Source: Pogonophryne albipinna (lineage: Eukaryota > Chordata > Actinopteri > Perciformes > Artedidraconidae). Taken from it: DNA of 64,000 bases. Location of the stretch: assembly GCA_028583405.1 (NCBI GenBank), contig CM053243.1, positions 49,983,826 through 50,047,825 on the forward strand, read 5' to 3'. Shown here piece by piece: positions 6,361 to 58,315 of this stretch. The stretch's first letter is position 1, and the number at the start of each line of letters is the position of its first letter. A program made the position numbers and the translations under genes. The notes below the pieces were generated by a model. That model ran no database searches, was not told where the DNA came from, and saw only the letters and a program-made list of their open reading frames with translations.

Positions 6361-6439
6361 ATGGCAACATAAGGATATTTGGCGTTTGTAATAGCTTTGG
6401 CTTGGTCTGAACTTTTTGCGAGTGGTGGAGGCTTAAATG

Positions 6440-8494: not shown

Positions 8495-8761
8495 GGTATT
8501 AACCCTGTTATTCCCTATTCGTATTTCCCTATTCTCCTTCCCCGTCTACCTGCCAGCCTGTCTGTCCTGGATTCCTGCTTGCCTGTCTGTCTCCCAGATT
8601 TCCTACCTGTCGTCGTTGTTCCCCTCGTACCATCGTTACCTGTCTGTTTATTCTGTCAGTGCTTTGACTGTAAAAAAATTGTTCCAGTAAAGCCTGTTTG
8701 CTCACCAAAACTTGCCATTGTCTCTGTCTGCGTTTGGGTCCTGCTTAACCCGACCGTAACA
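8492..8761 (+). repeat. Probable solo LTR (gypsy-like), about 270 bp
   Basis: The segment begins TGAGGTATTAACC and ends CCCGACCGTAACA, like ends of fish gypsy LTRs. TACAT before it and CACAT after it form a near-matching 5-bp duplication. No internal retrotransposon sequence accompanies it. It separates the two EnSpm genes. Confidence 0.5.
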
Positions 8762-8830
8762 CACATGCCTGAGTTACCTAATGTTCATATTCTCTTTTCT
8801 CCCAGCTCTCTCCTCTATTGAACAGCCAGC

Positions 8831-23941: not shown

Positions 23942-24740
23942 TGTTATCTGTGTTGGTTATTCTCGCGTCCAGGAGAGAAGCTTAAAAAGGAGACTAAATG
24001 GAGTCTCTGAGATGGGGTCAAATTGGTACTTTAATTAAAAATAAAGGCGCGGTTATGTTACAAACAGAATATTTGTTCGGTCAGGAGAGAAAGGCTGCAG
24101 CTTCCTCTCCCTGTGCTGGCCGTGAAGAAAGAGGCCGACCCCCTCAGGTCCCGATGTTTATATATCCTCTGCTGGCTCCTCCCTGCGGGCCGGCTCTCCA
24201 CGTCTTAATGTCTGTTGTTTCGCATATCAGAGGATTCAGACATTGTACATTCAATATATATCTAAACACGCCTTTTCTCTTCCTTAACTCTTTCATGATT
24301 TTTCATTTAACACATTCTAAACGCTGTAATCAATACTCCAAAAAATACAGGAAATACTTCACAGCAGTTTGGTTTCTGGTCGTTCCGGAAGTTGTCACAT
24401 GCTACTCACATCTGTAAACAATAACGTACTCAAATAAACTGTACCTTCATTTAATATTCAACAACAATAATAATATCTCGACGTCTATAGTTGTAGTGTT
24501 GAAATCAGTAGGTTTCGGTGTGCAACATCATATCATCTCGCTGCTAAATTCACCTCTATAGTAAATGGTATATTAGCCTCATGCTAAATGCTAACCGGAG
24601 ATGAAGGATTTTCAGTATAAAAGCTTAACAACTGGTTGTGCACAGGAACTTCTGGTTTTTCAGTATAAAACAGCTTTTTAAACTGACGGTATGTTTTATG
24701 GTTCATTATGCTATCAAAACATTGATTTTAATTTCTAACA
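23942..24740 (-). repeat. 3' LTR of the endogenous retrovirus (799 bp)
   Basis: Read on the minus strand it begins TGTTAGAAATT and ends CAGATAACA. A TATA-like GATATATAAAC lies near 24155-24167. By eye it differs from the other LTR at only about seven positions. Immediately to its right on the + strand lies the complement of the polypurine tract. Confidence 0.9.
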
Positions 24741-26749: not shown

Positions 26750-29058
26750 CTGGTTGTCAAGCCACGACCCCCTCACGTTCTGCTGGACCACGCGAACTCC
26801 TCTGGTTCCGTCCTCTGCTCCGTCCTGTCTTCTCCTCAGTCCATCCGCTCTTAGATCCTCCCGCTGTAACTCTTTTCAGTGGCCCAACTGCTTTGCATTT
26901 CATCTCCTCCTTTTCAGTCTCTATGCTGTTGCATGGAGGGCGTATTCCGCTCTCATGTCCCACACTCTCTCAGACAGACTTGGAGGAACACACAGAGGCT
27001 GTCTTATCCTACATCAAGTTCTGCACAGACACTGTAACTGTGGAAAAACGCATTCGGGTCTACCCAAACCAAAAACCATGGATGACAAGAGCGGTGCGGT
27101 CTCTCCTGAGTTCCCGTGACACAGCCTTCACGTCGGGGGACGCAGCCCAGTACAGCTTGGCAAGGGCGAATCTGAGGAGAGGCATCAAGGCTGCAAAGGA
27201 GGACTACAAGGGAAAAGTGGAGGAGAATCTCGCTCATAACAACACACGGTGTGTTTGGCAGGGCCTTCAACAGCTAACCAACTATAAGGGCAAAACATCT
27301 GGCACTACTAGAGCTGACGCCCACCTTGCTGAGGAACTAAACCACTTCTTGCCCGCTTTGAGGCTAGCAGACCCCCCCACTTTTCTATTCTGCTCTGTCC
27401 CTGCAAACTACCAGCTCCATACCTCCTCTCATTCTCAAAGAACATCAGGTAAAGCAGACGCTGAAGTCTGTGAATCCTGAAAAAGCTGCAGGACCCGATG
27501 GAGTACTCGGAAAAGTACTCAAAGCTTGTGCTGACCAGCTTTCAGGGGTCCTGACCAGGATATTCAACCTGTCCCTGTCACAAGCTTGCATTCCATCCTG
27601 TCTGAAAACGGCTACCATCATTCCTGTCCCCAAAAAGACACCAGTCAGTGAGCTCAACGATTACAGGCCCATAGCCCTAACATCGGCGGTGATGAAATGT
27701 TTCGAAAGACTGATAGCCGACTACATCAAAGCCAGCCTCCCACCCTCCCTCGACCCTCATCAGTTCGCCTATAGAGCCAACAGATCCACGGATGATGCCA
27801 TCGCCACGGTCCTTCACACAGCTGTGAGCCACCTAGAAGGCCCAGGCAACTATATAAGGATGCTGTTTGTCGATTTTAGCTCAGCTTTTAACACTATGCA
27901 TACCTGATTATACTAGTGGGAAAAACTGTCAAGCCTAGGTTTCCCCTCCATCTTATGCGCCTGGATTAATAATTTCCTTATAGACCGTCCTCAGACAGTG
28001 AAAATAGGCCCTTATTGCTCCTCCACCCGCCACCCTCAGCACTGGCTCCCCGCAGGGCTGCGTGCTGAGCCCTCTACTCTACACTCTCTACACACACGAC
28101 TGCTCTCCCATTCACCCCTCCAACTCCATTATCAAATTTGCAGATGACACCACTGTGGTCGGCCAAATATATAAGGGAGACGACGAGTCGGCATACAGAG
28201 ACGAGATCCTGAAGCTGTCTGTGTGGTGTTCAGCAAACAATCTGTATCTGAACACAAGCAAAACAAAAGAAATCATCATAGACTTCAGAAAGCACCGTCC
28301 AGAACCCGCCCCCCTTCACCTCAATGGAGAGAGAGTGGAGAGGGTCTCCACCTTTAAGTTCCTGGGGGTTCACATTTCGGAGAGCCTCAGCTGGACGGCA
28401 CACACCACTGCAGCAGTTACGAAGGCCCAGCAGCGACTACACTTCCTGAGGGTGCTTCGGAGAAACCGACTGAACAAGAAGCTGCTGGTGTCCTTCTACC
28501 GGGCGACCATCGAGAGCGTGCTGTCATACTCCATCTCGGGGTGGTATGCAGGATGCTCAGCTGCGGACAAGAAAGCCCTGCAGAGAGTGATCAGGATGGC
28601 AGAGAAAACCATCAGCTGCCCCCTGCCCTCTCTGGAACACATCTCCACCTCCCGCTGCCTCAGCAGAGCTAACAAAATTATAAAGGACAGCTCTCACCCA
28701 GGTCACAGACTGTTCTCTCTCATGCCTTCTGGGAGGAGATACAGGAGCTTCAAGTCACGGACAAACAGACTCAAAAACTGTTTCTACCCCTGGGCCGTCA
28801 GGCTGCTCAACCACCACACATAATGCAATAACCGTAACCATCCTCACACACACACTTTTAATGCACTTTATATACTATTTTTTATATCAATATTTTTAAC
28901 TATTTATTCCCCCGTATGATTGTATGTTGTCTGTCCTATTGCCGTGTTTTTTAGTGTTATGTATTTGTTTGTATTTTTTGCACACCGGGACAGAGTTGCA
29001 CTCTGAATCTCGTTATACTCTGTGTACAATGACAATAAAAGGCTTTAACTTTAACTTT
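26750..29058 (+). mobile_element. Rex1/L2-group LINE inserted in the provirus env region
   Basis: Coding similarity on the + strand starts upstream of the RT domain (KPWMTRAVRSLLSSRD, about 27076) and runs to a 3' tail TGACAATAAAAGGC followed by a TTTAAC repeat near 29055. Orientation is opposite to the provirus. The endonuclease is not clearly present, so it is 5'-truncated. Upstream of about 26760 and downstream of about 29060 the retroviral sequence resumes. Confidence 0.75.
26950..28823 (+). pseudogene. LINE ORF2: reverse transcriptase with frame lesions
   Basis: Three frames cover one protein. The first, to 27480, ends before the finger region. The second (27470-27905) begins [18 protein letters not shown], includes [13 protein letters not shown] and [13 protein letters not shown], then shifts frame near 27895. 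The third (28062-28823) carries the catalytic FADDTTVVG (about 28136), STFKFLGVHI, AQQRLHFLRVLRR, SYSISGW and the C-terminal LFSLMPSGRRYRSFKSRT to a natural stop. All RT blocks are present but the frame is broken at least twice. It belongs to the Jockey superclade (L2/CR1/Rex1 group); the exact clade is uncertain. Confidence 0.8.
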
Positions 29059-32238: not shown

Positions 32239-32940
32239 CTAAGCTTCCTCATTGTTGTGGTTGATATGTGGACAATCTCTAGCCCAATGGCCCATTTGGC
32301 TGCAATGGTAACATCCCTCAAACCGTAAACGTCTTCTGCCTGTGCCTCCTTGGAAACCTCCTGGTTGTTGGTTCTGGTTCTGATTATCTGGCACTATCTG
32401 AGATTTAACTGTTTGAGGTGTCTGCCCTGCATTCTCTGGTTCTTCCTGAGCTTGAATTGTTGGAGGTGTCTGCCCTGCCTTCTCTGGAAGTTTCCCCTCC
32501 CTTCTCCTTGTCTTGTTCCTACAAGCTACGGTGTCTTTTGTTTTTTCTGCTATGTCTTCCCTCACTGGCAGGTCTGCTACTCGGACCACATTTATGCTGT
32601 GTGCCAATAGGCTGGCATATTCCAGATGGAGTATCAGACTTGTAACTCTTATATATCTTTCTTCAGCTTCCCTCCATATACTTAGCTGTTGTAGGCATTG
32701 TTCGTGCTCATAGTCGAGTACTGCTCTTCTATGGGCTTTTGCTGGTCCAGGTTGATCATCTGCTGGAATCAGTCCTCTTGTTTGCCACTGTTCCAACAGT
32801 TTCTCTATTTGGTTCCATGTCTTCTGTCTTTTAATTGGAAAGGTTAAAGCATCTGATCAGATTTTTCCCCTTGCCTTGATATCTGCAGTTGAGCCTGGCT
32901 CTGCGTCTGGTCTCAACTTAGTTTCTTTCGGTGACATGCT
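32239..32940 (-). pseudogene. Retroviral gag remnant with CCHC zinc knuckle
   Basis: The main minus-strand frame (32796 down to 32239, 185 codons) ends with a CCHC knuckle (CYHCSQMGHWARDC), a Gln/Pro-rich linker and an upstream helical region. Coding appearance extends upstream to an ATG near 32937, with a stop near 32859. The total is well below the usual 450-600 residues of class I gag, so matrix/capsid sequence is reduced or missing. It lies about 2.0 kb downstream of the Ginger insertion point. Confidence 0.7.
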
Positions 32941-34961: not shown

Positions 34962-34965
34962 CCGG

Positions 34966-35905
34966 TGTTCCGGATTAACTTGTTTCCCGATCAACTCGTT
35001 ATCTTCGGGTACGTGGCTTTCGAATACACATTTTGATCGCTTTCTTCTGTCGTTTACATACATCTTTTGGTATATTTGGCTTCTTAGGAACACGTTGATG
35101 CACATCCAGTACCAGTGTGTGAGGTTGTGATTACGATGGCGATATCCGGACGCGAACAGCGAGGACTACAACAAGACAAACGAGTTGCTCGAATAAATCA
35201 TTTAAACCAGCTATTGTTACCAGACTTATTACGGAATATCGTTGTTAATGTCCAAGTCCATCTGTGTATACCTTCAGACAGCCTCCAAGTGCAGCACACG
35301 GTGTTTACTCACAGTTTGAAAGCAGCGTGGAGAAGTCTTCATCTGTGTTAAACTGTGATCCTCCAAGGGAACTGGGACCCGCCCACGTTAAAATGTGACC
35401 CGCCCACGTTAAAATGTGACCCGCCCAGGTTAAAATGTGACCCGCCCACGTTAAAATGTGACCCGCCCAGGTTAAATTGTGTTACGATTTCTGTGGCTAT
35501 CTACCAGCGATCATGTTTAATATGAAAGACTACCCACACTTATAAAAACGGTATTGTGCAGCACTCATCCAGATAAGATGTGACTGTTACCTCGTTTTGC
35601 AAAGATAGCAGCAGCAATGTCATTGGGGATATTTAGACTTTAAAGTGCTGCTTGGTCGTGAATGTTGGTGTCGGCAAACAATATTACGAATCCTCTATTC
35701 AAACATAATATTCAATGTGCATCGACATGAAAATAACAAAAAAGTTCATGCTGGACTCAAACCCGAGTCCCAACAGTAAAAATCAATCATGCCCTGCGCG
35801 CTATGAGTGCGCCATGAATCATCACATCCTAACAGATCACCACAGCTCATTTTGTTACATTAACATTGTCAACAACTTCTAGAAAAATGCAACTCGACAT
35901 CATAT
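34966..35905 (+). repeat. Ginger A left terminal inverted repeat
   Basis: Contains two copies of a 16-bp subterminal unit (like GATCAACTTGTTTCCC), a 78-codon frame identical in both TIRs (35115-35351, probably not a gene), five 22-bp minisatellite units (ACCCGCCCACGTTAAAATGT) at about 35388-35480, and a tRNA-like segment at about 35750-35822 (reverse). Confidence 0.8.
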
Positions 35906-36350
35906 TGATAATAATATATGATACAAATGTAAGACTGACAACAATAATAGTTAGTAAAGGATTTATTGATGTGAATGTTTTGAACAGTGAATACTTATTG
36001 TAAATCGCTTTGGATAAAAGCGTCAGCTAAATGCAATGTAATGTGATGTGATGTAACAGGCATCAACACAGCGACTTGATTTATTGTTCTCTGGTTATCT
36101 GTTAGGACGTGTTGAATGGAGAAGTCTTCATCTGTGTTAAACAGATCCTCCCAGGGAACTGGGACCCGCCCAGGTTAAAATGTGACCCGCCTAGATTAAA
36201 CTGTGACCCGCCCAGGTTAAACTGTTACGATATCTGTGTTCACTGTTCAAAACATTCACGTCAATAAATCCTTTACAAACTATTATTGTTGTCAGTCTTA
36301 CATTTGTATCATATATTATTATTAATATGATGTCGAGTCGATTTTACACC
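35906..36350. repeat. Rearranged TIR copy and SINE-like tail inside Ginger A
   Basis: ATCGCTTTGGATAAAAGCGT at about 36004 is the common fish SINE/LINE tail. Sequence at 36118-36235 repeats the TIR minisatellite region directly, and 36238-36345 is the inverse of about 35895-35990. This is a local duplication and inversion of the left TIR boundary. Confidence 0.6.
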
Positions 36351-36477
36351 CGTTTATACTTTCTGTTAGTGAAACATACAATTGAACAACAGGTGTACAG
36401 ACTTAATTAATTAATTCGCGCATGGGTCCAGTCTATATACATTGGATTAACATTTCGCCATGTTATGAGGTTAGTGA

Positions 36478-36715
36478 GGAGATAGCGAGAGACAGAGAGA
36501 TACAGAGATACAGAGATACAGAGATACAGAAAAAGAGAGATAGAGACAGATAGAGAGATAGAGAGATAGCGAGATACAGATATAGATAGATAGATAGCGA
36601 TAGATAGTGAAGAGATAGCGAGAGATACAGAGATACAGATATAGAGAGATAGAGACAGATAGCGAGATACAGAGAGATAGATAGATAGAAGCGATAGATA
36701 GTGAGTGATAGTGAG
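36478..36715. repeat. GATA/GACA-type satellite
   Basis: About 240 bp of GAGATACA, GATAGATA and GAGACAGATA units directly upstream of the Ginger A gene. Confidence 0.9.
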
Positions 36716-36965
36716 TGATTGAGCGTTGCCTGTGATAGAGTGATTGTCCTGGTGAGTGATAGTGGGTGAGTAATTGAGGTGCGACTGTGTGTATTTGAGA
36801 GAGGCTGGTATTGTAGGTTTGCGTGTATTTGTCACTTTGTTTGTTTGTCTTTGTTGTATTAATTTGTTTGTGTGTGAATAGGTGAGGGTAAGTAGGTAGG
36901 AAGTAGTAGGAGTTTAGGCGAGACAGGTGGAAGTAGGTGGAGTAAGGAGGGACAGAGAGTTGAAC

Positions 36966-39900
36966 ATGGATCCCAGAATTGTGCAACAAATTCTGGATCT
37001 AAAAGTCCACCACCAGTATCCTGAAGGGTCAACAAAGAGGGACAAATATGTCATTAAGAGGAGAGCTGACACCTTCAGGATAAAGGGTAAGGATGCATGT
37101 TATATGGAGTCTAGAACACAATGATAATATGCTATGGTAAAACTAATACATCTAATATTATGACATATAAACACCAGACGGAGAGCTGTACTACATCTGC
37201 AAGCGCAGACAAAACAAGACTGAGCACCTTGCCAAAGTTGTCTCTACTGCCGAAGAAGCAGACCAACTGTTCAAGGAGTTTCACTCCAGTAACATTGGTG
37301 GACACTGTGGAGTGGAGAAGACACACTGTGCGCTTATTGCTCGCTACTATTGGCCTGGCATGGAGAGTGACATACGCAAGTGAGTGAGTTGTATCTTCAA
37401 AATAATGAGGTGGAATACACATTCCGGTTCAAAAGTAGAGCACAGAGGAGTGTAATGTCAAGTGTATTTCAAAATTGCTTATACTGTATGTGCAAACATC
37501 CTATCAGCAGGATGATTAAGAGGTATGACTTTCAGGTGTTAAGCCATCACTGCTCTTAAGACCTGAAAGTCATGCCTCCTGCATGTGAAATAAATGTGAC
37601 TCTGTATATATATTTATATATATCATTATTATTATTATTATTATTATTATAAATACATACCTACTATTATTATTCATTACATTTTCGATTGTATACCCCT
37701 GCAAATAATTACTGCACTTTATTCCTTATATGCTGCGTGTATTTGTTTTCTTATGATGTGTTTTGTTTTGATGGCACCTTTTCAAAGGGAGAAGCATTTC
37801 TTTCTTTCTTTTTCTCTATTCTAGTTTAAAATATAATATAGCACATTTAATTGCACTAAATATTAGTCAGAACTTTGAAATGATGTTTGTCTGTTTTAGA
37901 TTGCTCAGTGTCCACAGTGCCAGGCCAAGAGAGCCAACATAAAGGAGAAGCAGGAGTACAGTCCGATAGAGGTAAAATAAACAATGGCATACTGGTATTG
38001 TCAGTGTAGAAACACGTCAACAGTGATTTACTGTAATGCTCATGTATTTTTTCCCCCCCAGGTTACGGAGCCTTTGGAACTGGTTGGGATGGACTTAGTG
38101 GGTAAACTCACAGTAACAGATGGTGGCAACCAGTACATATGTGTAATGGTTGACTATTTCACCAAATGGGCAGAGGCCTACCCACTAAAGAGTAAAACAG
38201 CAGAAGAGGTGCCCAATTGTATCATTGATTTCTTATACAAATTTGGTGCACCTCAAAGACTGCTAACAGACCAGGGCTCTGAGTTTTGCAACAAGGTACA
38301 GTGTTGATTCAGTATGAATCCCCAATATGTAACTGTAGTTGCTGTGCTAACCTATTGCTTGTCTGTCCTAATGATAATTTCAAGGTCAACTCTGCCCTGT
38401 GTGAGAGGCTGGACATAAAGAGAAGCCTGTGCTCCGCCTACCACCCACAGACCAATGGCCTTGTGGAGAAACTGAACGGCACTATACAGAGGTATTGGTT
38501 TTCAATACCTGATGGAATTCACGCTCTTCATAGAATAACAAACACATTTCCTGTTCCTATGTGAACAGGTAATCAGTAATGATATGTTGCTTTATCATAC
38601 ATGAGAACCCATATGCTCTCCTGCTTCCTCATACCTATACTTGAATTCTGCATTTTAAGGACGTTGAACAAAATGGTGGCTGGTCACCCCAAACGCTGGG
38701 ACCAGGTGCTCCAGTCCACCATGTTTGCTCTTCGGACAAAGAAACAGCTGACCACGAAATACAGCCCGTATTATTTGATGTTTGGGAGGGAGGCTAGGTA
38801 TCCTTCAGAGGTGCCAGAGGAGTACGTGGTAAGATGTTCTAATGTTGTAATCCTTTTCAAACGTCTTCATTTGGATCATCTGCCTTCTAAAATTCTAACT
38901 GTCATTTGTTGCAGGTCAAAGAAGACAAAGTCAGCAAGCTGGTCGAACGGGAGGAGATCCACGAAGGCCTGAAAAAACAGGAGGCTGTATTCACAGAGGT
39001 CAAAAACAACATGAAAACAAGTCAGGACAAGGTCCGCAAAAGAAAAATAGAAAGGGGCCAGGAAGACAACTTCCAAGTAGGGGATCAGGTGTTGCGGAGG
39101 AACGTGAGACAGGAGCAAAGGAAAGGGGGAAAGCTGGAGGATGACTGGTTGGGACCCTACAGCATCCTGGAACTAGAGGGGAAAAAGGCCATTGTTGGTA
39201 AGGGCACCACAAAGTTGCAGACCAACATAGACCATCTAACACATTATTTCCAGCCAGAGGAGAGGATCCCTGCCAAACTACAGAAGTTGTCCGATCCCTC
39301 TTCTCTGGCTGGTCCACAACACACAAAGACACAGACACACATCCACAGCACACAAACACCCACCACACAAACACCCACCACACAAACACCACAAGTGGCA
39401 CCTCCATCTCCATCTGACTGCGAGGCCCAAATGGCACCAAAAGATCCTGAACTTTGTAAGTAAACAGACAGAAAGTACACTCCAAATTATGCATTTCACA
39501 AATAACTGCCATTGCTATATTTACAGTAATTCGACAAATATGGACAGGGAGGAGAAAACACACGCTCTGGTGCAAGTTTGGGCCATATAAAGTATACACT
39601 GAGAACCTGATGGACTTGGCCCCAAGGAAGTGGTTGGAGGGAGAGGTAAATTACAAAACAAGATAATATTGGACTGATATGTATTTAGATTGTATCACAA
39701 GTTATTTTTGTACTCTTAGATCGTCAATTCATATTTAACTATGGTGGGAAGGAAAGCTAGCGCTCTCCTGATAGACTCCTATCCTCATGACATCGCTCTG
39801 GGAGGGAACCCACAAAGGTTCTTTGAGAAGGGTGAGTAGGACTATATAGTAGGATGATTTCGTTCTTTGTACATAAGTAGGCCTATGTATTTTGGGTATA

Positions 39901-41336
39901 TGTATGTTTGTATGTCCATACACACAAATACATACTTATGTTAGTGTATACATTAGTTGTTGTAATTATTAGAATTTGTTTTAGTTGGACCTTTTCAAAC
40001 ACGATGTGGCAGTTGGAGCGGTCTGCCACAACGGACACTGGACACTGATTGTAAGTAATCTTCAACGTAAACAGATCTAGACGGAACCATGACACTATCT
40101 GATGTAGGGGTTGGTTATAATTAGTATTTGCATTTCCATAGATCATGTACCTAAAGGAGAGGCGGTCCCTGTTCGTGGACCCATTTGGGGCCACAGAAGC
40201 GCAGATCGATAAATGCAAGGATGTAACAGGGTGAATGAAATGTCAGCTTTGATGTGTGCATTAGACAAATACATGTATTCATACACCATGGATCATCTTT
40301 TGGGAGCAACAAAAAGGTCATTCAAGCATTTTTGTCCTTTAACAGGATTCAACTGATCTTGAATTAAATGATTTTAATTGGGCATATGTTAAAATTGGCA
40401 AACTGTAATAAATGTGTGTTTTGTGTGTAGAGCATTGGTCCGCAAAAAGTGTCCGGGAATAGGGAGCTGGGAATGCGCAACCGTTGCTCACCCACAACAA
40501 ACTGACTCATCGTCATGCGGGGTGTTTGTGTGCAAGGTAAACATTTGATTATATCTGTTGCTATTTGTCATTATTAAAAAGTCCTCAAAATGATACTTAT
40601 CAGACACTTTTTAGCTTGCAGAGCAGATTTTGTCTGGGGAAAATGTGGCATATCCAGTTGACGCGATGGGTGTGGCCATGTTGCGGATGCACATGGCAAT
40701 GTCTCTGGTGACAAATTCAGGTATACAGAACTCTACCAGGTATACTTCAATGTGTCTATATTAGCATTAAACTACATTATCTTCTTTTTTGCAGATGACC
40801 TATCCCAGCTCTGTAGGGCTTGTGGGGAGCTCAGCTCGGGGGCTGAAGGGGACATTGATACGTGGGTATGTAGAGAAATTCATGTCCTTCTGCTGGAAGA
40901 CTGGGATGCCCCTTGGATAGGTTACCTCAACATCACTGGGTGAACACTCACTATCACACAGCTATTGCAAATGTATAGTTGAATTCACCTAACTTGCATG
41001 TCTTTGCACTTTCGGTGGGCACTGGAGCAGCTGCAGGAACATACCAACAGACTCCAAACAGAAAGGACCACAGCTAAGATTGTAACCCTATATCTGACAC
41101 CCATTGCCATACTATGTAAAGAAATAATGTCTAAGGAAGTTAAAACGGCTTAATTTGACATCCTAATCAGGATGATTGATGTGAACCTGACAAAATGTTT
41201 GACAGTATTCTAAAGTATTTCTCTTTTTCCCTGTCAGATTGAGTGCACCACCTGCCAAATGTGGTATCACTTAGGATGCGTGGGACTGGCCTCCCCCACA
41301 GAGGATGACTACTTTTGCCCTTCCTGCAAATCGTAA
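36966..41336 (+). CDS. Ginger A gene: integrase, GPY/F, Ulp1-like protease and PHD finger (about 15 exons)
   Basis: Exons, from splice signals and frame: 36966-37086, 37178-37379, 37900-37971, 38062-38295, 38385-38491, 38660-38828, 38915-39455, 39527-39645, 39720-39831, 39985-40050, 40142-40230, 40431-40536, 40615-40720, 40795-40865, 41238-41336; about 735 residues. Domains in order: HHCC zinc-binding (FHSSNIGGHCGVEKTH, CPQCQ); DDE integrase core (VGMDLVGKL, TDQGSEF, NGLVEKLNG); GPY/F (DDWLGPYSILELEG); a Thr/Gln/Pro linker; Ulp1/C48-type protease with His in NGHWTLI, Asp in LFVDPFG and Cys in QTDSSCGVFVCK; and a C4HC3 PHD finger (CRAC, CTTC, HLGC, CPSC). Lesions: a 1-nt insertion in exon 9 near 39782, and a frame mismatch at the exon 2/3 junction best explained by loss of a few bases. 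There is no reverse transcriptase, which argues for a DNA transposon and against a gypsy retrotransposon. Confidence 0.8.
40866..40943 (+). CDS. Alternative read-through C-terminus of the Ginger A gene
   Basis: If the intron after 40865 is retained, the frame continues 25 codons and ends EDWDAPWIGYLNITG at a stop (40941-40943). The same ending, EDWDTPWIGYLNITG, occurs at the same place in Ginger B (about 49364-49412), although the surrounding introns have diverged. This points to a conserved alternative terminal segment that would truncate the PHD finger. Confidence 0.5.
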   Translation, partial: VCREIHVLLLEDWDAPWIGYLNITG

Positions 41337-41339
41337 TGG

Positions 41340-41573
41340 CAGAGCAGAATATGTCTCCTTGGTCCCTCCCAGACCACCTGAGGACTCCACAGACCACTGA
41401 CGCCTTCAAGAAAGGCTTAAAAACCTTTCTTTTAAAAAAGCTTTTGATGACACTTTTGTTTATTTTGTTTGTTTTTATTATGCCTCCTGTAGCACCTTGG
41501 GATTGCTGTTAGCAATGGAAGGTGCTTTATAAATCGAATGTATTATTATTATTATTATTATTACTCTGCAATA
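41340..41573 (+). mobile_element. L2-type LINE 3' fragment within Ginger A
   Basis: A short frame reads SLPDHLRTPQTTDAFKKGLK, the C-terminus of an L2-like ORF2. It is followed by GGTGCTTTATAAATCGAATG and a (TTA)n tail ending near 41571. Confidence 0.75.
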
Positions 41574-42405
41574 ATCCAGTCTGTTCTCTGTACATCCATC
41601 ACTGTGTGGTTTGGATCCCAACCGGACAGAAAAAGGCTATGTTCCTTGTATGTTTATACATACTTGCCAAATAAAGCTGTACAAGAGAGCTATCCAGGTG
41701 TTTGACAGAAAGCCAAATTCATACCACCACTGTACCATCCTTGAAAAACACAATTTCTTGAGTTTTGACAATTTTAAGTCTTTTAAAAGTATGTGTTCTG
41801 TTTATAAATGTTTACATGGACTGCCCCCCCCCCCTCCCTTAGGGGAATTCATCCACAAAAGACACTGGACGCTGCACTAGGTCAGAAACCAGAGGAGACT
41901 GTGAAGTCCACCGTAGACGGACCACTTTTGGACAAAATGTCCTCTCCGTTAAAGGCAGCTCTTTGTGGAATAGCCTCCCAACTGAGATACGGGATTGTCC
42001 CACCCTCAATAGGTTCAAAGGTCAACTCAAAGAATGGTTGAGAAACAAACAGACGTGCAATCACCGCTAAATGCACTTTAACACAGGGGTATCTCCTCTT
42101 GCACTTTATGTAGCACTTTTATATTTTCTTGCACTTTATATGTTGTTGCTGCTATATTGTATTACCATGTGATAAATACTTGTGTATGCTGCTCTTGCTC
42201 TTTTGCACTTTTTGCATATCATGTATTTTGTTTTTGCCATGTTTGTAAAATGTAATTTTCTTAAATGTTTTATGTGAGGGACTGCGGATGGAAATTAGCT
42301 CAAAGCTAAATCTGGCACTGTTATGCTTGACGCATTTTAATGTTTTAAGTGTTCATTACTGAGCATTGTCCCTGCCAAGTAAAGGATTAAATAAATAGAT
42401 ACTGA
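41574..42405 (+). mobile_element. Second LINE 3' fragment (Rex1/CR1-like) within Ginger A
   Basis: Decayed coding sequence (YKRAIQVFDRKPNSYHHCTI, then CSVYKCLHGLPPPPL) breaks into several frames and leads to a 3' UTR containing GGGACTGCGGATGGAAATTA and a terminal AATAAATAG near 42397. Confidence 0.65.
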
Positions 42406-43094
42406 ATCATTAATATCATTGTTGTTGTCTTTCCTTCTGTCACACTAATGAGTAAGTCTATCTACTATAGGCTACAGAAGCAAAGCTTGCATTGCATATT
42501 AGAACATGAATTTGGCCACTGTTATTATAGTTGCAATGTGTAAAATTGGCCCTTAGCACACCATAGGGGACGTGATGCCTATGCTGTTAAGTATTTTATT
42601 TTTGTGAGTCTGTCGCAAGACAGAAAAGACAGCCAGTATTGCTAGAATATAAACCTTTTTTTAAATTGCATTCTGTTTCTAGCGCAACACCTTTGGTCCA
42701 GGTTTACATCCTATCAGCTACTGCATTAGCAGACAGAGCAAAAGGAAATGGGGGGCCTATTTAGAAAGTTAACGTTTCAAAATGTCTATATTGTGAGGCA
42801 AAATATTATATTATAGCATAATGTTGCATGGCAAATATCACGCAACACATGGCCTGATTTGCATATTGGAAGTTAATGTTTTCACTAGAACACATTTATA
42901 TGTAAAATTAACACTTATCACAACATAATGTGGGCTCGCAGGCTGATAAACTAGGATATCTGATCTCTGTGGGTCTTAATGAGGCTTGATACAGACCTCA
43001 GTCAGTATACTATTTCTAAGCAAATGCCTACTATAATATGTATATTATATGGCTTAAAGTGTACAGACATTCGCTCACATTATAAATGATGGTC
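42406..43094 (+). other. Ginger A interior between LINE fragments and right TIR
   Basis: AT-rich sequence with no supported ORF or recognised repeat. Confidence 0.4.
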
Positions 43095-44012
43095 GAGTTG
43101 CACTTTTCTAGAAGTTGTTGACAATGTTAATGTAACAAATTGAGCTGTGGTGATCTGTTAGGATGTGATGATTCGTGGCGCACTCATAGCGCGCAGGGCA
43201 TGATTGATTTTTACTGTTGGGACTCGGGTTTGAGTCCAGCATGAACTTTTTTGTTATTTTCATGTCGATGCACATTGAATATTATGTTTGAATAGAGGAT
43301 TCGTAATATTGTTTGCCGACACCAACATTCACGACCAAGCAGCACTTTAAAGTCTAAATATCCCCAATGACATTGCTGCTGCTATCTTTGCAAAACGAGG
43401 TAACAGTCACATCTTATCTGGATGAGTGCTGCACAATACCGTTTTTATAAGGGATACATGTGTGGGTAGTCTTTCATATTAAACATGATCGCTGGTAGAT
43501 AGCCACAGAAATCGTAACACAATTTAACTTGGGCGGGTCACATTTTAACGTGGGCGGGTCACATTTTAACGTGGGCGGGTCCCAGTTCCCTTGGAGGATC
43601 ACAGTTTAACACAGATGAAGACTTCTCCACGCTGCTTTCAAACTGTGAGTAAACACCGTGTGCTGCACTTGGAGGCTGTCTGAAGGTATACACAGATGGA
43701 CTTGGACATTAACAACGATATTCCGTAATAAGTCTGGTAACAATAGCTGGTTTAAATGATTTATTCGAGCAACTCGTTTGTCTTGTTGTAGTCCTCGCTG
43801 TTCGCGTCCGGATATCGCCATCGTAATCACAACCTCACACACTGGTACTGGATGTGCATCAACGTGTTCCTAAGAAGCCAAATATACCAAAAGATGTATG
43901 TAAACGACAGGAGAAAGCGATCAAAATGTGTATTTCAGTCGAAAGCCACGTACCCGAAGGAAACGAGTTGATTGGGAAACAAGTTGATCGGGAAACAAGT
44001 TGATCCGGAACA
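43095..44012 (-). repeat. Ginger A right terminal inverted repeat
   Basis: Inverse of the left TIR. It has three copies of the 16-bp subterminal unit where the left has two, and three 22-bp minisatellite units (about 43518-43580) where the left has five. The 78-codon frame recurs at 43606-43842 on the minus strand. Confidence 0.8.
43174..43244 (+). repeat. tRNA-like segment in the Ginger TIR
   Basis: GTGGCGCACTCATAGCGCG resembles an A-box region and GGTTTGAGTCC a B box, about 40 bases apart, in the order of a tRNA or tRNA-derived SINE head. The same segment occurs reversed in the left TIR (about 35750-35822). Folding into a full cloverleaf was not shown. Confidence 0.4.
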
Positions 44013-44016
44013 CCGG

Positions 44017-44065: not shown

Positions 44066-44863
44066 TGTTATCTGTGTTGGTTATTCTCGCGTCCAGGAGA
44101 GAAGCTTAAAAAGGAGACTAAATGGAGTCTCTGAGATGGGGTCAAATTGGTACTTTAATTAAAAATAAAGGCGCGGTTATGTTACAAACAGAAAATTTGT
44201 TCGGTCAGGAGAGAAAGGCTGCAGCTTCCTCTCCCTGTGCTGGCCGTGAAGAAAGAGGCCGAACCCCTCAGGTCCCGCTGTTTATATATCCTCTGCTGGC
44301 TCCTCCCTGCGGGCCGGCTCTCCACGTCTTAATGTCTGTTGTTTCGCATATCAGAGGATTCAGACATTGTACATTCAATATATATCTAAACACGCCTTTT
44401 CTCTTCCTTAACTCTTTCATGATTTTTCATTTAACACATTCTAAACGCTGTAATCAATACTCCAAAAAATACAGGAAATACTTCACAGCAGTTTGGTTTC
44501 TGGTCGTTCCGGAAGTTGTCACATGCTACCCACATCTGTAAACAATAACGTACTCAAATAAACTGTACCTTCATTTAATATTCAACAACAATAATAATAT
44601 CTCGACGTCTGTAGTTGTAGTGTTGAAATCAGTAGGTTTCGGTGTGCAACATCATATCATCTCGCTGCTAAATTCACCTCTATAGTAAATGGTATATTAG
44701 CCTCATGCTAAATGCTAACCGGAGATGAAGGATTTTCAGAATAAAAGCTTAACAACTGGTTGTGCACAGGAACTTCTGGTTTTTCAGTATAAAACAGCTT
44801 TTAAACTGACGGTATGTTTTATGGTTCATTATGCTATCAAAACATTGATTTTAATTTCTAACA
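44066..44863 (-). repeat. 5' LTR of the endogenous retrovirus (798 bp)
   Basis: Same orientation and almost the same sequence as the LTR at 23942-24740, one base shorter because of a T-run difference. It is separated from its gag by the Ginger A insertion. Outer flank CTAA. Confidence 0.9.
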
Positions 44864-45741: not shown

Positions 45742-45940
45742 TCAGCTGTTTATTTCACATGAGTTCCAGTGTGGCAGCTTTTCACGGCTCCCCCTGGTGG
45801 ATCCATGATCCATTGCAGCTGGTTTCATTAAAATTACATTTATTTATCAAGGGGGCGTATCAAGTCCTGCGGGGGGGTTTTCCTTTTCAGCAGGGACCCG
45901 CACGGGTAGGCGTCTGAAATGAAGCGCTACATCTGTAGAA
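45742..45940. other. Sequence between the outer hAT and Ginger B
   Basis: No gene or recognised repeat. Ginger B coding similarity starts abruptly at 45941, so the left half of Ginger B was lost here. Confidence 0.4.
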
Positions 45941-46391
45941 AGAAGCCTGTGTTCCCCGTATCATCCACAGACGAATGGGCTCGTGGAAAAATTAAACGTA
46001 ACAATACAGAGGTATGTTAACTAATATAAATAACATATTATTGTTCCTACATTAAAGGGGGGGGTAGGTAAGTTTGAGAAACCGGCTTGAGATACACTTT
46101 TTGTTATATTCCATGGAATGCTCTTAACATCCCGATAGCAATGCATATCTTAAGTGCTTTGACAAAAAATCCATAAAAAAAATTTCATCTGTGGAAGCCG
46201 TAGTACTGTAAAAAGTACGACCAATCCGTTTAGCCGGGCCGGCTAAACGGATTGGATTGCCGTCCTGTCTGTCAGCCTTCCATCTCGTGCACGCACAAAT
46301 GTATCTCGTGCCCTCATTGGGCGTGCCGTCATTGGGCGTGCATTGCAGCAGTACTTCAATGACTCGCCAGCAACAGGCGGCCACTTTCACC

Positions 46392-46538
46392 ATGGCAGAG
46401 TTAGGTTCAACATCGTCTACTGGTGGCAAAAGAAATAATGTAACGGAGCAAATTAGGAACAAAAACAAAGTGGAAACTAGGAGAATTCAAACCAGAGTCA
46501 ATATCGGAGTTGCTTTTCAACTGATGGCGACTAACTGA
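46392..46538 (+). CDS. Short ORF with an R-V-N-I-G-x-A-F motif in the TTAA element
   Basis: The frame starts MAELGSTSSTGGKRNN, includes RNKNKVETRRIQTRVNIGVA and stops after 48 codons. A basic region followed by RVNIG.AF resembles the N-terminal segment of repeat-encoded fish proteins that I cannot name. Probably a truncated transposase or accessory exon; weak. Confidence 0.3.
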   Translation: MAELGSTSSTGGKRNNVTEQIRNKNKVETRRIQTRVNIGVAFQLMATN

Positions 46539-46547
46539 TGCAACACA

Positions 46548-46985
46548 CCTATGGGGGTTATTCCCTATCTTTATTCAAGAGCGTGGTATTTAAATTTGAG
46601 AGCATACTTTATGTATTTATTTCCCTCAAACCCTGTCCTCGCACTCAAATAGTGCCTGCTTGCACTTAATTGCTCTGCTTCTGCTCAAACTGTACGCTTG
46701 CACTCAGATATATTGCTGCTTACAGGATTTTTTCTGCTCTCAGATTTATTCTCTGCGCGCTCGAAACTTTTGTGCAACAATCCTGTCAAAATCCCTCAAC
46801 CAATAGGAGGCCAGGTGTCCTTGCGGGTGCGTTCGTTTTACTTATTACAGCGTCCCGTAAGGGCGGTTACTCTTTGGTTTGTCTTTGGTGCGATGACAGG
46901 GTTTGAGTGAAGGAAATCAATAAAGTATGCTCTCAAATGTAAATACCACGCTCTTGAATAAAGATAGGGAATAACCCCCATACAC
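46548..46985. mobile_element. Palindromic MITE nested in the TTAA element
   Basis: Arms of about 60 bp (ATGGGGGTTATTCCCTATCT with TTATTCAAGAGCGTGG, and their inverse at 46925-46983) are almost identical. ACACACC flanks both sides, a likely 7-8 bp TSD. No ORF. Confidence 0.7.
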
Positions 46986-49779
46986 ACCGAGTTGAAATCT
47001 GACGCCGTGGTCGCTCTTTTTCTCTTGGACAGGTGTTGTATGGTTTACAATTCCCCTGAACTATAGAGCCAACCTAAGTCATGTGCGCGTTCATGTGTGT
47101 TGGAGGAGGTGCTCTGTAAGGAAGTCTGAAGGAAGGGGCGGATTCTTTTCGGCTGTGTACTTTCAAATTTTAGTGCACTCGAGCCGGTTTCTGAAACTTA
47201 CCTACCCCCCCTTTAACAGTAATCACAAATTATACCTAAATAAGAGAGTAAATAAATGGGTTGCTTTATCATATATTCGAAACCATTTTGTCTTCTACCT
47301 TCTTGTGTCTGTACTTTACCTGAATTTAGGTCCCTGAACAAACTGGTGGCGGGTGAGCCCAAACGTTGGGACCAATTCCTGCAGTCCACCATGTTCAGTC
47401 TGAGAACAAAGTTTCAGGTGACTACAAAGTTCAGTCCATACTTTCTGATGTTTGGGAAGGAGGCGAGGGACCCATCAGAGGTGCCCAAGGAGTACAAAGT
47501 AAGATCCGGTTATTCTCTCATCCTGTAGCATTATTTTTAGTAATAATAATTTAATAATTTCAAACATGTATGTTCTCTACATTCTAACTGTTTTCTGTGG
47601 CAGATAACAGAAGACAAAGTCAAAAGGATGGTGGAAAGGGAAGATTTCTGGGAGGGACTTCAAAAACAGGAGGCCGTTTTCACGCTTGTCAAGAAAAACA
47701 TGAAAAAAAGCCAAGAGGAAACTGGAGAAAGGGCAAGCAGACAACTTCCAAGTGGGGGACTTGGTTTTAAAAAGAAATAAAAGGTTGGAGCAAAGAAAAG
47801 GTGGAAAACTAGAGGTGGAAATGCAGGGACCTTACCGGGTTGTGGACATTGAGGGGAAAGTTGCTGAAATTGTTTCAGAAAAAGGAAAGAATAAGATGAA
47901 AGTCAACATTGACCACCTCACACAGTATGTCCAGCCAGAGGAGAGGATCCCTGCTAAATTGAAAAAATGGTTGGATCCTTCTCCTCTGGCTGGTCCACTG
48001 ACCTCCAGCTCCACATCCACACCCTTGACATCCTCCCAAACCCTGGCTCCATCAAAAAATCAATAAACTGACACAATGTACACCTCAAAGTATGCATTTC
48101 CTTAATAACTAACATGCCTTATCTTTTTTTTTTTTACAGTAATCCGAGACATATGGGCTTGGCCCCAGGACAGCAGTTGGAGGGAGGTAAGCCTACTTTA
48201 TAAGACAAAAGTACATATGCAAACTGATAATTCTTTATCAAATGGGATAAAAACATATGTTGTATTTATAGATTGTCAATGCCTATTTATCATGGGTGGG
48301 TGCAAAAGCTGGGGCTTTCATTTTGGACTCCGACCTCATGACTTTCCTCTGGCAGGGAACACACAAAGGCGGTTTAAGAAAGGTGAGTAGAGTAGGACTA
48401 GAAATAAGTGAATGTACAAATATTTTTCAGTTGGACCTGACAAAACACGATGTGGCAGCTGGAGCCGTCTGTTACAGGGCACACTGGACACTCATTGTAA
48501 GTAATCTAAAATGTTAATGGGTCAAGATATGTTTTTATTCAACACTTTTTTATTTAACACTTGACACTTTGTTTAATTTGTTGCACTTCCATAGATCATG
48601 TATCTGAGGGAAAACAGGTCCCTTTTCTTGGGGCCACCAAAGACCAGATAAGCCGCTGCAAAAACCTAACACGGTAAATCAAATATCAGCTGTAATGTCT
48701 TTACTTCATGCATTCAGGATGTGGGATTATATTGAGGGAGCAACACAAAGCCACATAAATAATGTTCCTGATTACTGCTGTTTTACTTGAATAACATAAG
48801 ATTGTCCTGTGTGAACATTCAGCTGTTCTTGACTTAAAAAAGGATTGTATGTCCAAAACATAATGTATGTGTTCCCTGTGTAGATCGCTGTTCCGCAAGA
48901 CAAAGCCAGCTGTTGGGAGATGGGCATGCGACAGCATGGATCATCCCAAACAGCAGGACACAACATCATGCGGTGTGTTCATTTGCAAGGTAACATTTAT
49001 GAATGAGTATATATAACCATCTGTCATTAAACAATAATACAAAGACACATATCTCAGACTTTGTTAGCTTGCAGAGCAAATACTATTGGACCAGAAGGTC
49101 CAGGACCCTGTTGACCAGGCGGGTGTGGCCTCAATGAAGTTCGACATGGGAATGTCCTTGGTGAAAAATTCCGGTATACAGGACTAAACCAGAGAAACCG
49201 AAATATTCTGTATTTTTGGGCATTTCACTACATTTATGCCGGTATTTGTTTTTTACAGATGACCTATCCTAGCTGTGTCAGGCCTGTGGGGAACTTAGTT
49301 CAGGGTTGACCAAGGTTGACCAATGGGTAAGACGTTGTATTCATTTCCTGACCAACATTTGTATGGAAGACTGGGATACACCCTGGATAGGTTACCTCAA
49401 CATCACCGGGTGAACACTATAACAGATATTGAACATTTTCACTTTAATTCACCAATTGTCTTTGCACTATGGGAGAACACTGGCGCAGTGGAAGGAACTT
49501 GTGAGCACAGACTCTACACAGAAAGGACCACAGATAAGATCCCAACCTATACATTGCTTGTTTAGTTAAATGTAATCAGCGTGATTGTAAAGCGTACTCT
49601 GGATGAGTGATGTTAACCTAAAAAATGTTTGTCCATATTCTAACATGTATTATTTCTTTTTATAGTTTATAGTTTCTTTTCAGATTGAGTGCACCAGCTG
49701 TACCAAATGGTACCACACAACATGTGTTGGGCAGCCCTCTATCTCACTGGACTATTACTGCAAAGCCTGCACTTTATAA

Positions 49780-49919
49780 ACACACACAAATTCCTTGTTT
49801 ATGTTCACATGTGGTCCAGGCTCTTGTCATCGCACACTTAAAGCTAAAGTATTACGTTTTCAAAGGCAACTTTTATATATATATATTTAAATAAATGTAC
49901 ATATTTTGTGTGTATACAT

Positions 49920-49951
<32 letters not shown>

Positions 49952-49984
49952 CTGTACACCCACTGTTGTATATCATTTGGAATG
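49780..49984. repeat. 3' UTR of Ginger B and simple repeats
   Basis: AATAAATG lies near 49889, followed by (CATA)n and (CA)n at about 49913-49952. Confidence 0.5.
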
Positions 49985-50300
49985 GAATCTAACATACTGA
50001 CATGACAAATGGTGGAATGAGCTCCCCATAGACATCAGGACAGCAGATAGCTTACACATCTTCCGGTGCAGACTGAAAACTCATCTCTTTCGACTCCACT
50101 TCGAGCGATAGAATTACTAACAAAGAATTACTACCAAAGCACTTATATACTATTAAAGGACTGGCTTATCTAAAGCCAGTTGAGTTGCACTTGAAATGTT
50201 TTGGCTCTTTGAAATCTGATGTACTTATATGATTCTGTTTCCTTCAAGTTCTTCTTGGTCGAATGCAAAAAACTTTTCCAATAAAAGGTGTTTCTGAAAT
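49985..50300 (+). mobile_element. LINE 3' fragment
   Basis: A frame reads WNELPIDIRTADSLHIFRCR followed by LKTHLFRLHFER and a stop, the C-terminus of an L2-like ORF2, then a non-coding tail. Confidence 0.6.
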
Positions 50301-50496
50301 ATAACTTTCACTGTTGTTTTTCCTTCTATAACAGTAAAGTAGGTAAAAAAAAAGAAAGTGCATTTATGTAAACTAAACTGACATTTGGGAACCAAAAAGT
50401 GAATGTTGCAACCTAGGCAGTTAAGCATTTGAAATCATTGGGTGTTAATGCTGGAACAGTGGGAAGGTAGACATAATTGTAGACATCATTGAAATG

Positions 50497-50805
50497 TCAC
50501 CCAAGGTTCAGTACTCGGCCCCCTCCTCTTCATCATCTACATCCTCTCCCTTGGTCAGATTCTCCGCCACTACAACCTGGACTTTCACTGTTACGCTGAC
50601 GACACACAGATTTACCTCAGCACCAAATCCCCCCACATCGAATCCTGTCTGACTGCAATAAAATCCTGGATGCAACACAACTTCCTCAAACTCAACAGCA
50701 ATACAACTGAACTCCTCCTCATCGGCTCCAAATCCACACTCAGCAAAACCCCCAAGCTGATGAGTGTCAGCTTGGGGGTTTTGCTGAGGGTGGATATTAT
50801 GGTAT
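50497..50805 (+). mobile_element. L2 LINE fragment with a fold-back inversion
   Basis: Frame from the RT region ([20 protein letters not shown], then [11 protein letters not shown] and [14 protein letters not shown]), a diverged relative of the copy at 5167-6360. At about 50738-50800 the sequence runs into its own inverse (CAGCAAAACCCCCAAGCTGA, then TCAGCTTGGGGGTTTTGCTG), a perfect short hairpin, and coding ends there. Confidence 0.75.
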
Positions 50806-51139
50806 ATTATTATTATAATTGCTTACACGTATAGGCTAGAAGTTATAATAGAACAACTGTATTCTATGGATTCGATTTGTTATTTTCACAGCAATAACAT
50901 GTGAAGTCTGCAAACATCTTCGATGGTACTGTTTCACAAACAACCCAGTGCATAGTTGTTCGTTTTATGTTGCTATTTTTTCAAATCGACAATTTACATT
51001 CAATTGTAATAAAGACACATATCTGATGCACAGTGTAGAGTTGTGATGAGAGGGATACAGGTATTTAATAAAAACATTGATCGCTTGAGAATGGCTGGAG
51101 AAGTTGTATCACCATTTATTCGGAGCGGATCACAGCTTG
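50806..51139. other. Ginger B interior, no gene seen
   Basis: AT-rich sequence left of the right TIR; some resemblance to the inner TIR cannot be judged by eye. Confidence 0.35.
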
Positions 51140-51601
51140 CCACAGATGACCGTCATCTCCATGCTGCTTTCGGGCTGTGAGTTAACTTGTGTTTCACAGA
51201 GGCGGTCTGAAGGTATGGACAGCTATCAAAGCTATTATACATCACATTAAGAACGATGTACAACTGAAACTCTGACAAAGATATATTGTTAAAATGATTT
51301 ATTAACGTTCGCAATGTTTTGCACAGGCATCCCCACAGTCACCTACTTTGTCATTTTCCAGTCCTCACTGTAAGCTTCACGATATCAGCCTCTCACCCAC
51401 AACCTCACATACGCGTACTGAACGTGCATTAAAGTGTTCCTATTCAGTCAGATATAAGATTAATTTGAACGACAGGCGAAGCGATCGAGAAGTTTCTTTC
51501 CTGGTGAGTCAACAATGGGTCCTCAAGGTACAAGTCCCGATACATCTGTCTAAAATAATAGAATATCACCAGTTGTTCGTCCCACAACTTATTCGTTAAC
51601 A
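51140..51601 (-). repeat. Ginger B right terminal inverted repeat
   Basis: Read inward from 51601 it starts TGTTAACGAATAAGTTGTGG and shares collinear blocks with the Ginger A TIR: CGTTCAAAT near 51465, CACTTTAATGCACGTTC, GTGAGGTTGTG and GTGAGGACTG. Overall identity is low. Confidence 0.6.
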
Positions 51602-56740: not shown

Positions 56741-57356
56741 AGATACCTGTTGATTACCAAAATCTGTGATTTGGCTTTGCTACAAAATTTTAGAGTTGTC
56801 AGCGCGTTCTCAGTGTTCTTAGTCACGGTAAAAAATACAATACTTAAGAAAGTGTTTGTATAAGAGTCAGGTGTAAATTCCAGACCTATAGGGCACTAAG
56901 GGTGTGTAAGAGTCTGGTTTTGCATTCCAGTCCTTAGCTCACTAAAAGCAAAGTCGGTGCTCAGAGTCCGGTAGGGCATTCCGGACCGGACCAGGTTTTT
57001 CGCCTGCCGTCTGTCTGCAGACTTGTCAAAGCATTAATTCATGGTTTTTACTAACCGGTATCAGTATGTTGTTACTTCGGCATCATTTTGAAATGTGTAT
57101 TACAATTAAATCAGGGTCAAATATGTTCATCTTGTTGTAGTTGTAGCCCCCTTGCTAGCGATTCTCTCTCTAGTTTAGCATACTCAGCCCGACTCAGCCT
57201 GGTTGTTCCTGGCCCTAGAACCACGATTTAGTCGGGCCAGAAAAAAGGTGAAAAAGTAGCCCCGGGCCAAAGCTAGGCCAAGTGGAAACGCAACCAAAAA
57301 CGGGCCCCGCACGGCTCGGCACGCTTAAAGCGAGCTACCCGCTGCAGTGGAAACGC
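56741..57356. repeat. MITE-like sequence, includes a segment shared with 15390-15530
   Basis: About 57000-57125 is the inverse of about 15390-15530 (shared ATGAACATATTTGACC, ATTTCAAAATGATGCCGAA, ACTGATACCGGTTAG). The right part (57170-57356) has GGCCTAGCTTTGGCCCG and GTTTCCACTGCAG-type ends (minus strand). It truncates the P-element transposase at about 57357. Confidence 0.5.
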
Positions 57357-57822
57357 GCCATTAGAGCAAGACCAACCTTCATCTTATCAAAGTGACTTGG
57401 CTTGATGGCTGCAGCTGAAAGATGGGGAGCTATTTTTAAGGCCATCCCTTCCTGAAAGGTCAATAAGTCCTTAATGGGGACCACAGAAACCTCGTTAGAG
57501 GGGAGGTTCTCTCTGTTAACAACATCCTCAGGAATTATGAAGACCTGCCCACGGACAAGGGCACTTTTAAAAAAAATTACCAGATGTGGAACATCGGGCA
57601 TGAAATAAAGCTGCCTGTCTGGTTTTGCTGGATGTGGCACCGATGTTTTATTTTGGTCCACCCCAAAGGATTTCCACATGGCTCGGTTAGGGCTACCCAT
57701 GTCGGTGGTGACATCAAGCACATGTAGCCCTATGGATGCTGCCCTCTGTATTATATCAATAATGATTGGCCTGTACTCTGCTCCATTGGTAGAATTGCCA
57801 GTGTAATGATATGCCACTACTT
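57357..57822 (-). pseudogene. P-element/THAP9-like transposase, middle part
   Basis: The minus-strand frame downstream of the hAT-like insertion reads VVAYHYTGNSTNGAEY, then IGLHVLDVTTDMGSPNRAMW (the second catalytic Asp region of P-element transposases) and MPDVPHLVIFFKSALVRGQV. It ends where another repeat begins at about 57357. The C-terminal catalytic Glu region is missing. It joins in frame with 59086-59314 when the insertion at 57823-59085 is removed. Confidence 0.75.
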
Positions 57823-58315
57823 CAGGGGTAGACATTAAGGGTAACATTTCGGTGGAATTTTGTTATCACTGGCCCCACCATTGTAACCACTGGCCCAAGA
57901 GCATTCGTCCAAAAAAATCGACTAATAATGAAGAAAATGAACACTTGTTGCAATAGTAATTTATGCACAAACTACATTACTACTAGTACTACAACATTTG
58001 AATCATCAGTTCTTCCTCATTTTCCTCAATTGTTCATATCTGGTTTATTAAAATAATTATATTGTGGTCATTGGTAAAAAAATGTCTGCTATTATGGAGT
58101 ATTATTCTTAGTATAATGCGCTTTCTGCCTTCCTGTCATTATCAGGAGTTAGAAATGTAATGGCTATGTAATAGATTAGAACCTTCATTATCCTAAACTG
58201 CTGGGACATTTCCCTATAGCCAATACCTTTTATATTTTCTACTCTTTACTTACATAAGTCGGCATTGATGTACAGAGCCGACTAAAGACCTTGTTTATAT
58301 TGGCATCATACAGAG

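Follow-up and report, generated by a model that had tools for sequence, protein, structure and literature searches.

A Ginger1-like DNA transposon encoding an integrase, a SENP-like protease and a PHD finger in the teleost Pogonophryne albipinna

We analyzed a stretch of 64,000 nucleotides from Pogonophryne albipinna (assembly GCA_028583405.1, contig CM053243.1, positions 49,983,826 to 50,047,825 of the forward strand), hereafter the window, to which all coordinates refer. Positions 34966-44012 of the window hold a whole DNA transposon of 9,047 base pairs (bp), which is very probably a Ginger1-type cut-and-paste element of a teleost. The sequence and the comparisons below show its anatomy, its domains, its target-site duplication (TSD) and its placement in a clade apart from the tested integrases that accompany a reverse transcriptase (RT). 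The element carries long terminal inverted repeats (TIRs) and a multi-exon gene whose product joins a Gypsy-type integrase to a domain resembling SUMO proteases and a PHD finger, and an older relative lying beside it allows constraint on these domains to be estimated.

Results

Element boundaries and target site

The outer ends of the element are TGTTCCGGAT and ATCCGGAACA, and the tetranucleotide CCGG, read directly from the sequence, abuts both of them (34962-34965 on the left, 44013-44016 on the right) at the single insertion examined. The left TIR (34966-35903, plus strand, about 938 bp) begins with the first of these sequences and the right TIR (43086-44012, minus strand, about 927 bp) ends with the second. 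When left positions 34968-35903 are aligned to right positions 43994-43086, 883 of 951 columns are identical and 57 are gap columns, so that identity without gaps is 883/894; the outermost 31 bases, aligned separately, match at 30. In the 64-kb window, a 35-base terminal pattern (up to three mismatches allowed) is found only at the two ends, one occurrence each, against a mean of 0.00 in 100 shuffles.

The two arms, each of roughly 930 bp, differ in how many tandem units they hold: about two copies of a 16-base unit on the left and about three on the right, and five and three copies, respectively, of a 21-base unit, GACCCGCCCACGTTAAAATGT. Both repeats are candidate binding sites for the transposase. 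Rearranged TIR pieces are also seen in the left arm at 36083-36345, approximately 35328-35500 being repeated there directly and 35885-35994 in inverted orientation. The sequences flanking the insertion are ACAGCCGG and CCGGCTGT, which, when joined, yield a 12-base palindrome, ACAGCCGGCTGT, containing one CCGG. This suggests a palindromic target, a single site being too few to define a preference.

Gene structure and encoded domains

A single plus-strand gene was delineated between the TIRs, with 15 exons and 14 introns, all of the GT-AG type, encoding a protein of about 739 residues. Exon 1 (36966-37086) carries a start codon, several relatives beginning alike, and the first part of a YPYY region; the remainder of this region lies in exon 2 (37178-37383) together with the His pair of an H2C2 zinc finger, whose Cys pair falls in exon 3 (37900-37971). 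The integrase core is divided between exon 4 (38062-38295), with the first and second catalytic Asp, and exon 5 (38385-38491), with the catalytic Glu; downstream of the core follow exon 6 (38660-38828) and exon 7 (38915-39455), the latter holding the GPY motif and a low-complexity linker. The protease region starts in exon 8 (39527-39645) and runs through exon 9 (39720-39831), exon 10 (39985-40050, catalytic His), exon 11 (40142-40230, catalytic Asp) and exon 12 (40431-40536, Gln and catalytic Cys) to its end in exon 13 (40615-40720). The PHD finger has its first Cys pair in exon 14 (40795-40865) and the rest in exon 15 (41238-41336), which also carries the stop codon. The frame is broken twice: by an in-frame TGA that closes exon 2 (37381-37383), a position through which all 14 relatives covering it (of 16 aligned) read, and by a one-base frame shift in exon 9 at about 39780-39787, where the neighboring copy and the relatives are in frame. 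Either break could instead be a sequencing error.

The spliced translation was submitted to Pfam in two parts, and four families scored above their gathering thresholds: Integrase_H2C2 (8.9e-18), rve (6.9e-17), Peptidase_C48 (1.1e-8) and PHD (5e-7); zf-H2C2, rve_3, C1_1 and a few others fell below theirs. The YPYY region ahead of the zinc finger was identified by eye, with YP at residues 18-19 and YY at 45-46. The integrase core is of the DD35E type (D144, D203, E239), with GPY at 383, and the protease residues are His579, Asp596, Gln636 and Cys642. Across 17 aligned rows, His579 and the adjacent Trp580 are invariant, while Asp596, Gln636, Cys642 and the integrase Glu239 are conserved in at least 90%. 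The PHD finger comprises Cys690, 693, 710 and 713, His718, and Cys721, 734 and 737, with Trp716 preceding the His by two residues.

The top solved-structure match of the protease sequence in the PDB is human SENP1 (E 5e-7), and a profile built from 20 relatives matches, among PDB chains, the integrases of prototype foamy virus and Ty3 as well as SENP1 and SENP2. The AlphaFold model of a tilapia relative, whose predicted local distance difference test (pLDDT) score is mostly above 90 in the protease region and 65 for the whole model, also has SENP2 and SENP1 as its top fold matches. Among the 52 solved-structure matches of the PHD finger, UHRF1 ranks first (1e-7), followed by BPTF (9e-6). The PHD fingers of UHRF1 and BPTF bind histone H3.

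RT sequences were sought within the element using 15 RT-bearing relatives and four open reading frames (ORFs) of long interspersed nuclear elements (LINEs) as queries. These 19 queries, which RTs unlike them could escape, produced 53 matches, 52 of them in the region of the integrase exons (37100-39500) and one in a LINE 3' fragment; this fragment aside, no RT domain was found with them between the Ginger ends. The fragment (about 41870-42040, plus strand; tblastn, 34% identity, E 2.6e-6) is the remnant of the 3' end of a nested LINE ORF and not a part of the transposon, and a Pfam search of the ORFs at 41575-42070 returned no family above cut-off.

Most of what an initial annotation had read in this sequence was borne out. 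The ends, the CCGG duplications, the long TIRs and the exons all lie where it had placed them, the integrase H2C2, rve, Peptidase_C48 and PHD domains pass their Pfam cut-offs, and its statement that RT is lacking holds for the 19 queries, the nested LINE end being the only exception. The plus-strand multi-exon gene that it had described is present with 15 exons, but the reading frame is not intact.

Relatives and integrase phylogeny

A protein search at E 0.001 retrieved 267 relatives, of which the best 120 were examined. The top relative is a Pseudochaenichthys protein (82%), and Pseudochaenichthys and Chaenocephalus are the closest among the matches listed. Named proteins in the best 65 rows are from teleosts, two rows carrying Mustela putorius furo as an additional name. 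Precomputed Pfam annotations place rve, Peptidase_C48 and PHD together in several teleost proteins (P0011, P0016, P0022, P0041). The initial annotation had proposed a vertebrate Ginger family with about 15 exons: the Ginger affiliation and the multi-exon structure stand, while these relatives narrow 'vertebrate' to teleost.

A maximum-likelihood tree was built from 41 integrase cores and rooted at its midpoint, P0162 being excluded since its match was too short. We labeled 15 rows as Ginger-like (14 from fish, one of unnamed origin), 19 as RT-bearing and six as 'other'. The branch that contains the element (ultrafast bootstrap 96, SH-like approximate likelihood ratio test 95) groups all 15 Ginger-like rows with two of the six 'other' rows and none of the 19 RT-bearing rows.

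A second, older copy under past constraint

A translated search of the window revealed an older, truncated Ginger copy on the plus strand (45932-51500), in which exons 5-15 are found at 45932-49779 and a diverged right TIR at 51127-51500, together with a weaker match at 50968-51134; this TIR is 64% alike over 385 columns. The 5' part of this copy and its outer right end were not found in the window. Of the splice sites that could be placed by hand, all ten acceptors (exons 6-15) carried AG and all nine donors (exons 5, 6 and 8-14) carried GT at the matching spot, so that the exon structure is the same as that of the first copy wherever it is preserved. Exon 5 no longer has its 5' end, nor exon 7 its 3' end, and the copy is also disrupted by stops, by a break of the frame in exon 7 and by deletions in exons 8 and 11. 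It belongs to a diverged Ginger subfamily.

The ratio of nonsynonymous to synonymous divergence (dN/dS) between the two copies, calculated with exon 8, the last part of exon 11 and stop codons omitted, is 0.21 (dN 0.28, dS 1.31; bootstrap 0.14-0.30; 403 codons), a rough value as dS is near saturation. By part, it is 0.28 for the protease exons (144 codons) and 0.18 for the PHD exons (52 codons). Ratios of this order indicate that protease and PHD finger were under constraint while both lines were alive.

Intron 14 and a possible second form of the protein

Intron 14 is 75% identical between the two copies (249/330, 69 gap columns), which exceeds exons 12-15 (65-69%) and also all but one of the eight further introns compared (56-70%, the exception being intron 7 at 76%); exons 6-11 are 68-82% identical. 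Identity is concentrated in blocks: 49 of 53 positions agree in the first (40895-40947) and 31 of 36 in the second (41047-41082). For the first block, P is 5e-7 relative to a 62% background, a value that serves only as a guide because block and background were picked after viewing the alignment. With the start of the intron included, the conserved stretches are 40866-40947 and 41047-41082, corresponding to 49327-49417 and 49507-49542 in the second copy.

The first block prolongs exon 14 in frame to WVCREIHVLLLEDWDAPWIGYLNITG and a stop codon, and in the second copy to WVRRCIHFLTNICMEDWDTPWIGYLNITG and a stop. Protein models of other fishes point to a possible alternative extension of exon 14, in which the start of intron 14 is kept (40866-40943, plus strand) and the protein ends in EDWDAPWIGYLNITG at a stop, without the remainder of the PHD finger. 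This tail is present in three of the 120 relatives scanned (the best 120 of 267), namely P0001, P0004 and P0021, while a search with the tail region of P0004, which gave 10 rows, found it in P0001, P0004, P0121, P0122 and P0123. Among the scanned rows, the carriers belong to Pseudochaenichthys, Chaenocephalus and Sebastes only. For one gene of Sebastes umbrosus, isoform X3 has the tail and isoform X2 a different end; X3 also lacks the portion corresponding to exons 9 and 10, which shows that such gene models are untidy.

On these comparisons, we tentatively consider that the transposase may exist in two or more conserved forms, one bearing the PHD finger through the joining of exons 14 and 15, another retaining the start of intron 14 and ending in EDWDAPWIGYLNITG, although we think this rather doubtful. 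That 117 of the 120 relatives are listed without the tail counts against it, and the conserved blocks of intron 14 might represent a splicing-control element instead of an isoform. Were two isoforms produced, splicing would set whether the SUMO-protease integrase has a histone reader, and a DNA transposon would carry its own switch governing activity or the choice of target.

Host element and surroundings

The Ginger copy is nested in a larger element delimited by direct long terminal repeats (LTRs) at 23942-24740 and 44066-44863, which are 99% identical (792/799), and bordered by CTAA on either side. This host (23942-44863) is probably an LTR retroelement on the minus strand; on one side of the insertion lies its right LTR and on the other a minus-strand ORF (32239-32856) that contains a gag-type zinc knuckle. 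Since Ginger lies inside an element whose LTRs are 99% identical, it would be younger than its host and would have moved recently. In a search for an empty site, the joined Ginger flanks matched only themselves and the LTR repeat within the window; the other LTR copy cannot show an empty site because the Ginger insertion lies outside the LTR.

Other mobile sequences are seen in the window. LINE RT ORFs lie inside the host LTR element on the plus strand (27368-28823). Long ORFs of 404, 564 and 326 amino acids at 3368-9802, with no Pfam family above cut-off, adjoin a LINE RT ORF at 5131-6156. An ORF at 19545-20480 matches the initial part of a DDE_Tnp_1_7 transposase domain, of the piggyBac type, and a minus-strand ORF at 57335-57862 contains a TNP-like RNase H N-terminal domain.

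Discussion

Proposed mechanism

The arrangement described above is consistent with the following sequence of events. The spliced transposase would bind the long TIRs, perhaps through their 16- and 21-base repeats, and excise the element, whose TGT/ACA ends would be joined across CCGG with a four-base stagger by an integrase of the Gypsy/foamy-virus type. The SENP-like domain may strip SUMO from the transposase itself or from proteins of the host that act in repair or at chromatin, and the PHD finger may dock the complex on histone H3. The protease and the PHD finger, both of which evolved under constraint, may thus act at chromatin. Bao et al. (2010, PMC2836005) likewise propose a role in transposition for these proteases. 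Given its broken frame, the copy at 34966-44012 would either have been moved by the transposase of a partner or have broken after landing.

Weighing the classification

Several observations weigh against a Ginger1 assignment. According to Bao et al., Ginger1 elements have TIRs of about 40-270 bp, lengths of about 2.6-7 kb, zero to four introns and 5' ends of the form TGTNR, a conserved pattern shared with Gypsy (PMC2836005). Here the TIRs are about 930 bp, the length is 9,047 bp (partly nested repeats), there are 14 introns, and the terminus is TGTTC, whose fifth base is C and not a purine, a mismatch with a pattern that we treat as descriptive. The copy has two frame breaks, no further complete Ginger copy flanked by a TSD was observed in the window, and the outer end of the older copy cannot be defined. 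The tree was built without any Hydra Ginger1 reference, and the rows labeled Ginger-like do not form a clade by themselves (0% of 200 bootstrap trees), as two 'other' rows fall inside. One of these, P0026, carries an RNase H and adjoins the element in the tree. P0026 was considered as a possible RT-bearing relative and set aside: it contains two rve stretches, begins with an RNase H and finishes with a Ginger-like integrase, which makes it look like a fused gene model.

Three alternatives were considered. TIRs far longer than those described for Ginger1, along with the rearranged TIR pieces at 36083-36345, would fit a composite in which a long-TIR non-autonomous element had captured the Ginger transposase gene of another family; the older copy, however, also has a stretch resembling the right TIR downstream of its gene, so gene and TIR seem to have traveled together, and we regard a composite as very unlikely. 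A domesticated host gene akin to GIN1 or GIN2, lying between inverted repeats by chance, would account for the many introns and the constraint, GIN2 having eight coding exons (PMC3424704), but it is extremely improbable in view of a TSD and TIRs exactly at the ends, the location inside an element with 99% identical LTRs, the two frame lesions, the adjoining diverged copy and a DDE triad that is kept here and reportedly not in GIN2 (PMC3424704). A Gypsy LTR retrotransposon with inverted LTRs left after RT loss, which the Gypsy-type integrase, the H2C2 finger, the GPY motif and the RNase H of P0026 might recall, is scarcely credible against the inverted ends, the CCGG duplication, the protease-PHD tail, the 14 introns, RT-query matches confined to the integrase exons region and one LINE fragment, a branch holding none of the 19 RT-bearing rows and the reading of P0026 as a fused model.

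With the Ginger1 assignment retained, the window offers a whole and apparently recently moved vertebrate element of this type, with defined ends, target and exons, and with an older relative alongside that shows constraint. It can now be asked what a SUMO-protease-like domain and a PHD finger contribute to a DNA transposon of the integrase type, and whether the PHD finger is turned off through splicing of intron 14.

Comparison with known systems

Ginger elements are already recorded in teleosts, zebrafish having 6,053 copies and medaka 236 by our reading of the relevant table (PMC4746887); the present element shares their superfamily and host group, the comparison extending to copy counts alone. 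Ginger relics are also reported in frog, coelacanth, turtle and alligator (PMC9004415). Among titles and the openings of abstracts, we found no account of the structure or splicing of a teleost Ginger1 element, Repbase and most subscription journals lying outside this search.

Other systems share part of this organization. The vertebrate genes GIN1 and GIN2 (PMC3424704) are Ginger1-derived integrase genes with introns, three introns being common to Ginger1-5_HM and the Gin genes (Bao et al., PMC2836005), but they are host genes; crustacean Imagin (PMC12863088), likewise Ginger1-derived and intron-bearing, is a host gene without inverted repeats or a DDE triad. Ginger2/TDD elements have an integrase-like transposase, an H2C2 finger and a TGT start, and differ in their AT-rich RTATAY target and in lacking GPY/F and YPYY, whereas the present element has a CCGG target and both motifs. 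Gypsy LTR retrotransposons have direct LTRs and RT/RNase H, as opposed to the inverted ends found here and the absence of RT matches with the 19 queries.

The closest resemblance is to Ginger1, in particular to Ginger1-9_HM of Hydra. As in these elements, we find the YPYY region, the H2C2 finger, the DDE core, GPY/F and a C-terminal Ulp1 and PHD, together with a CCGG duplication, a TGT start and introns in the transposase gene. Bao et al. report TSDs of CCGG in 75% and CCGT/ACGG in 24% of cases, and a C-terminus bearing OTU or Ulp1 with one exception, Ginger1-9_HM combining Ulp1 and PHD (PMC2836005); the initial annotation, which had mentioned such proteases and PHD fingers in Ginger, was correct in this according to the same paper. 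As the combination of Ulp1 and PHD is already described, the element is of a known kind and its domain combination is not new. We file it as a variant of the Ginger1 type, the 40-270 bp TIR length being a described range, and with its long TIRs and numerous introns it extends beyond the range so far described for Ginger1.

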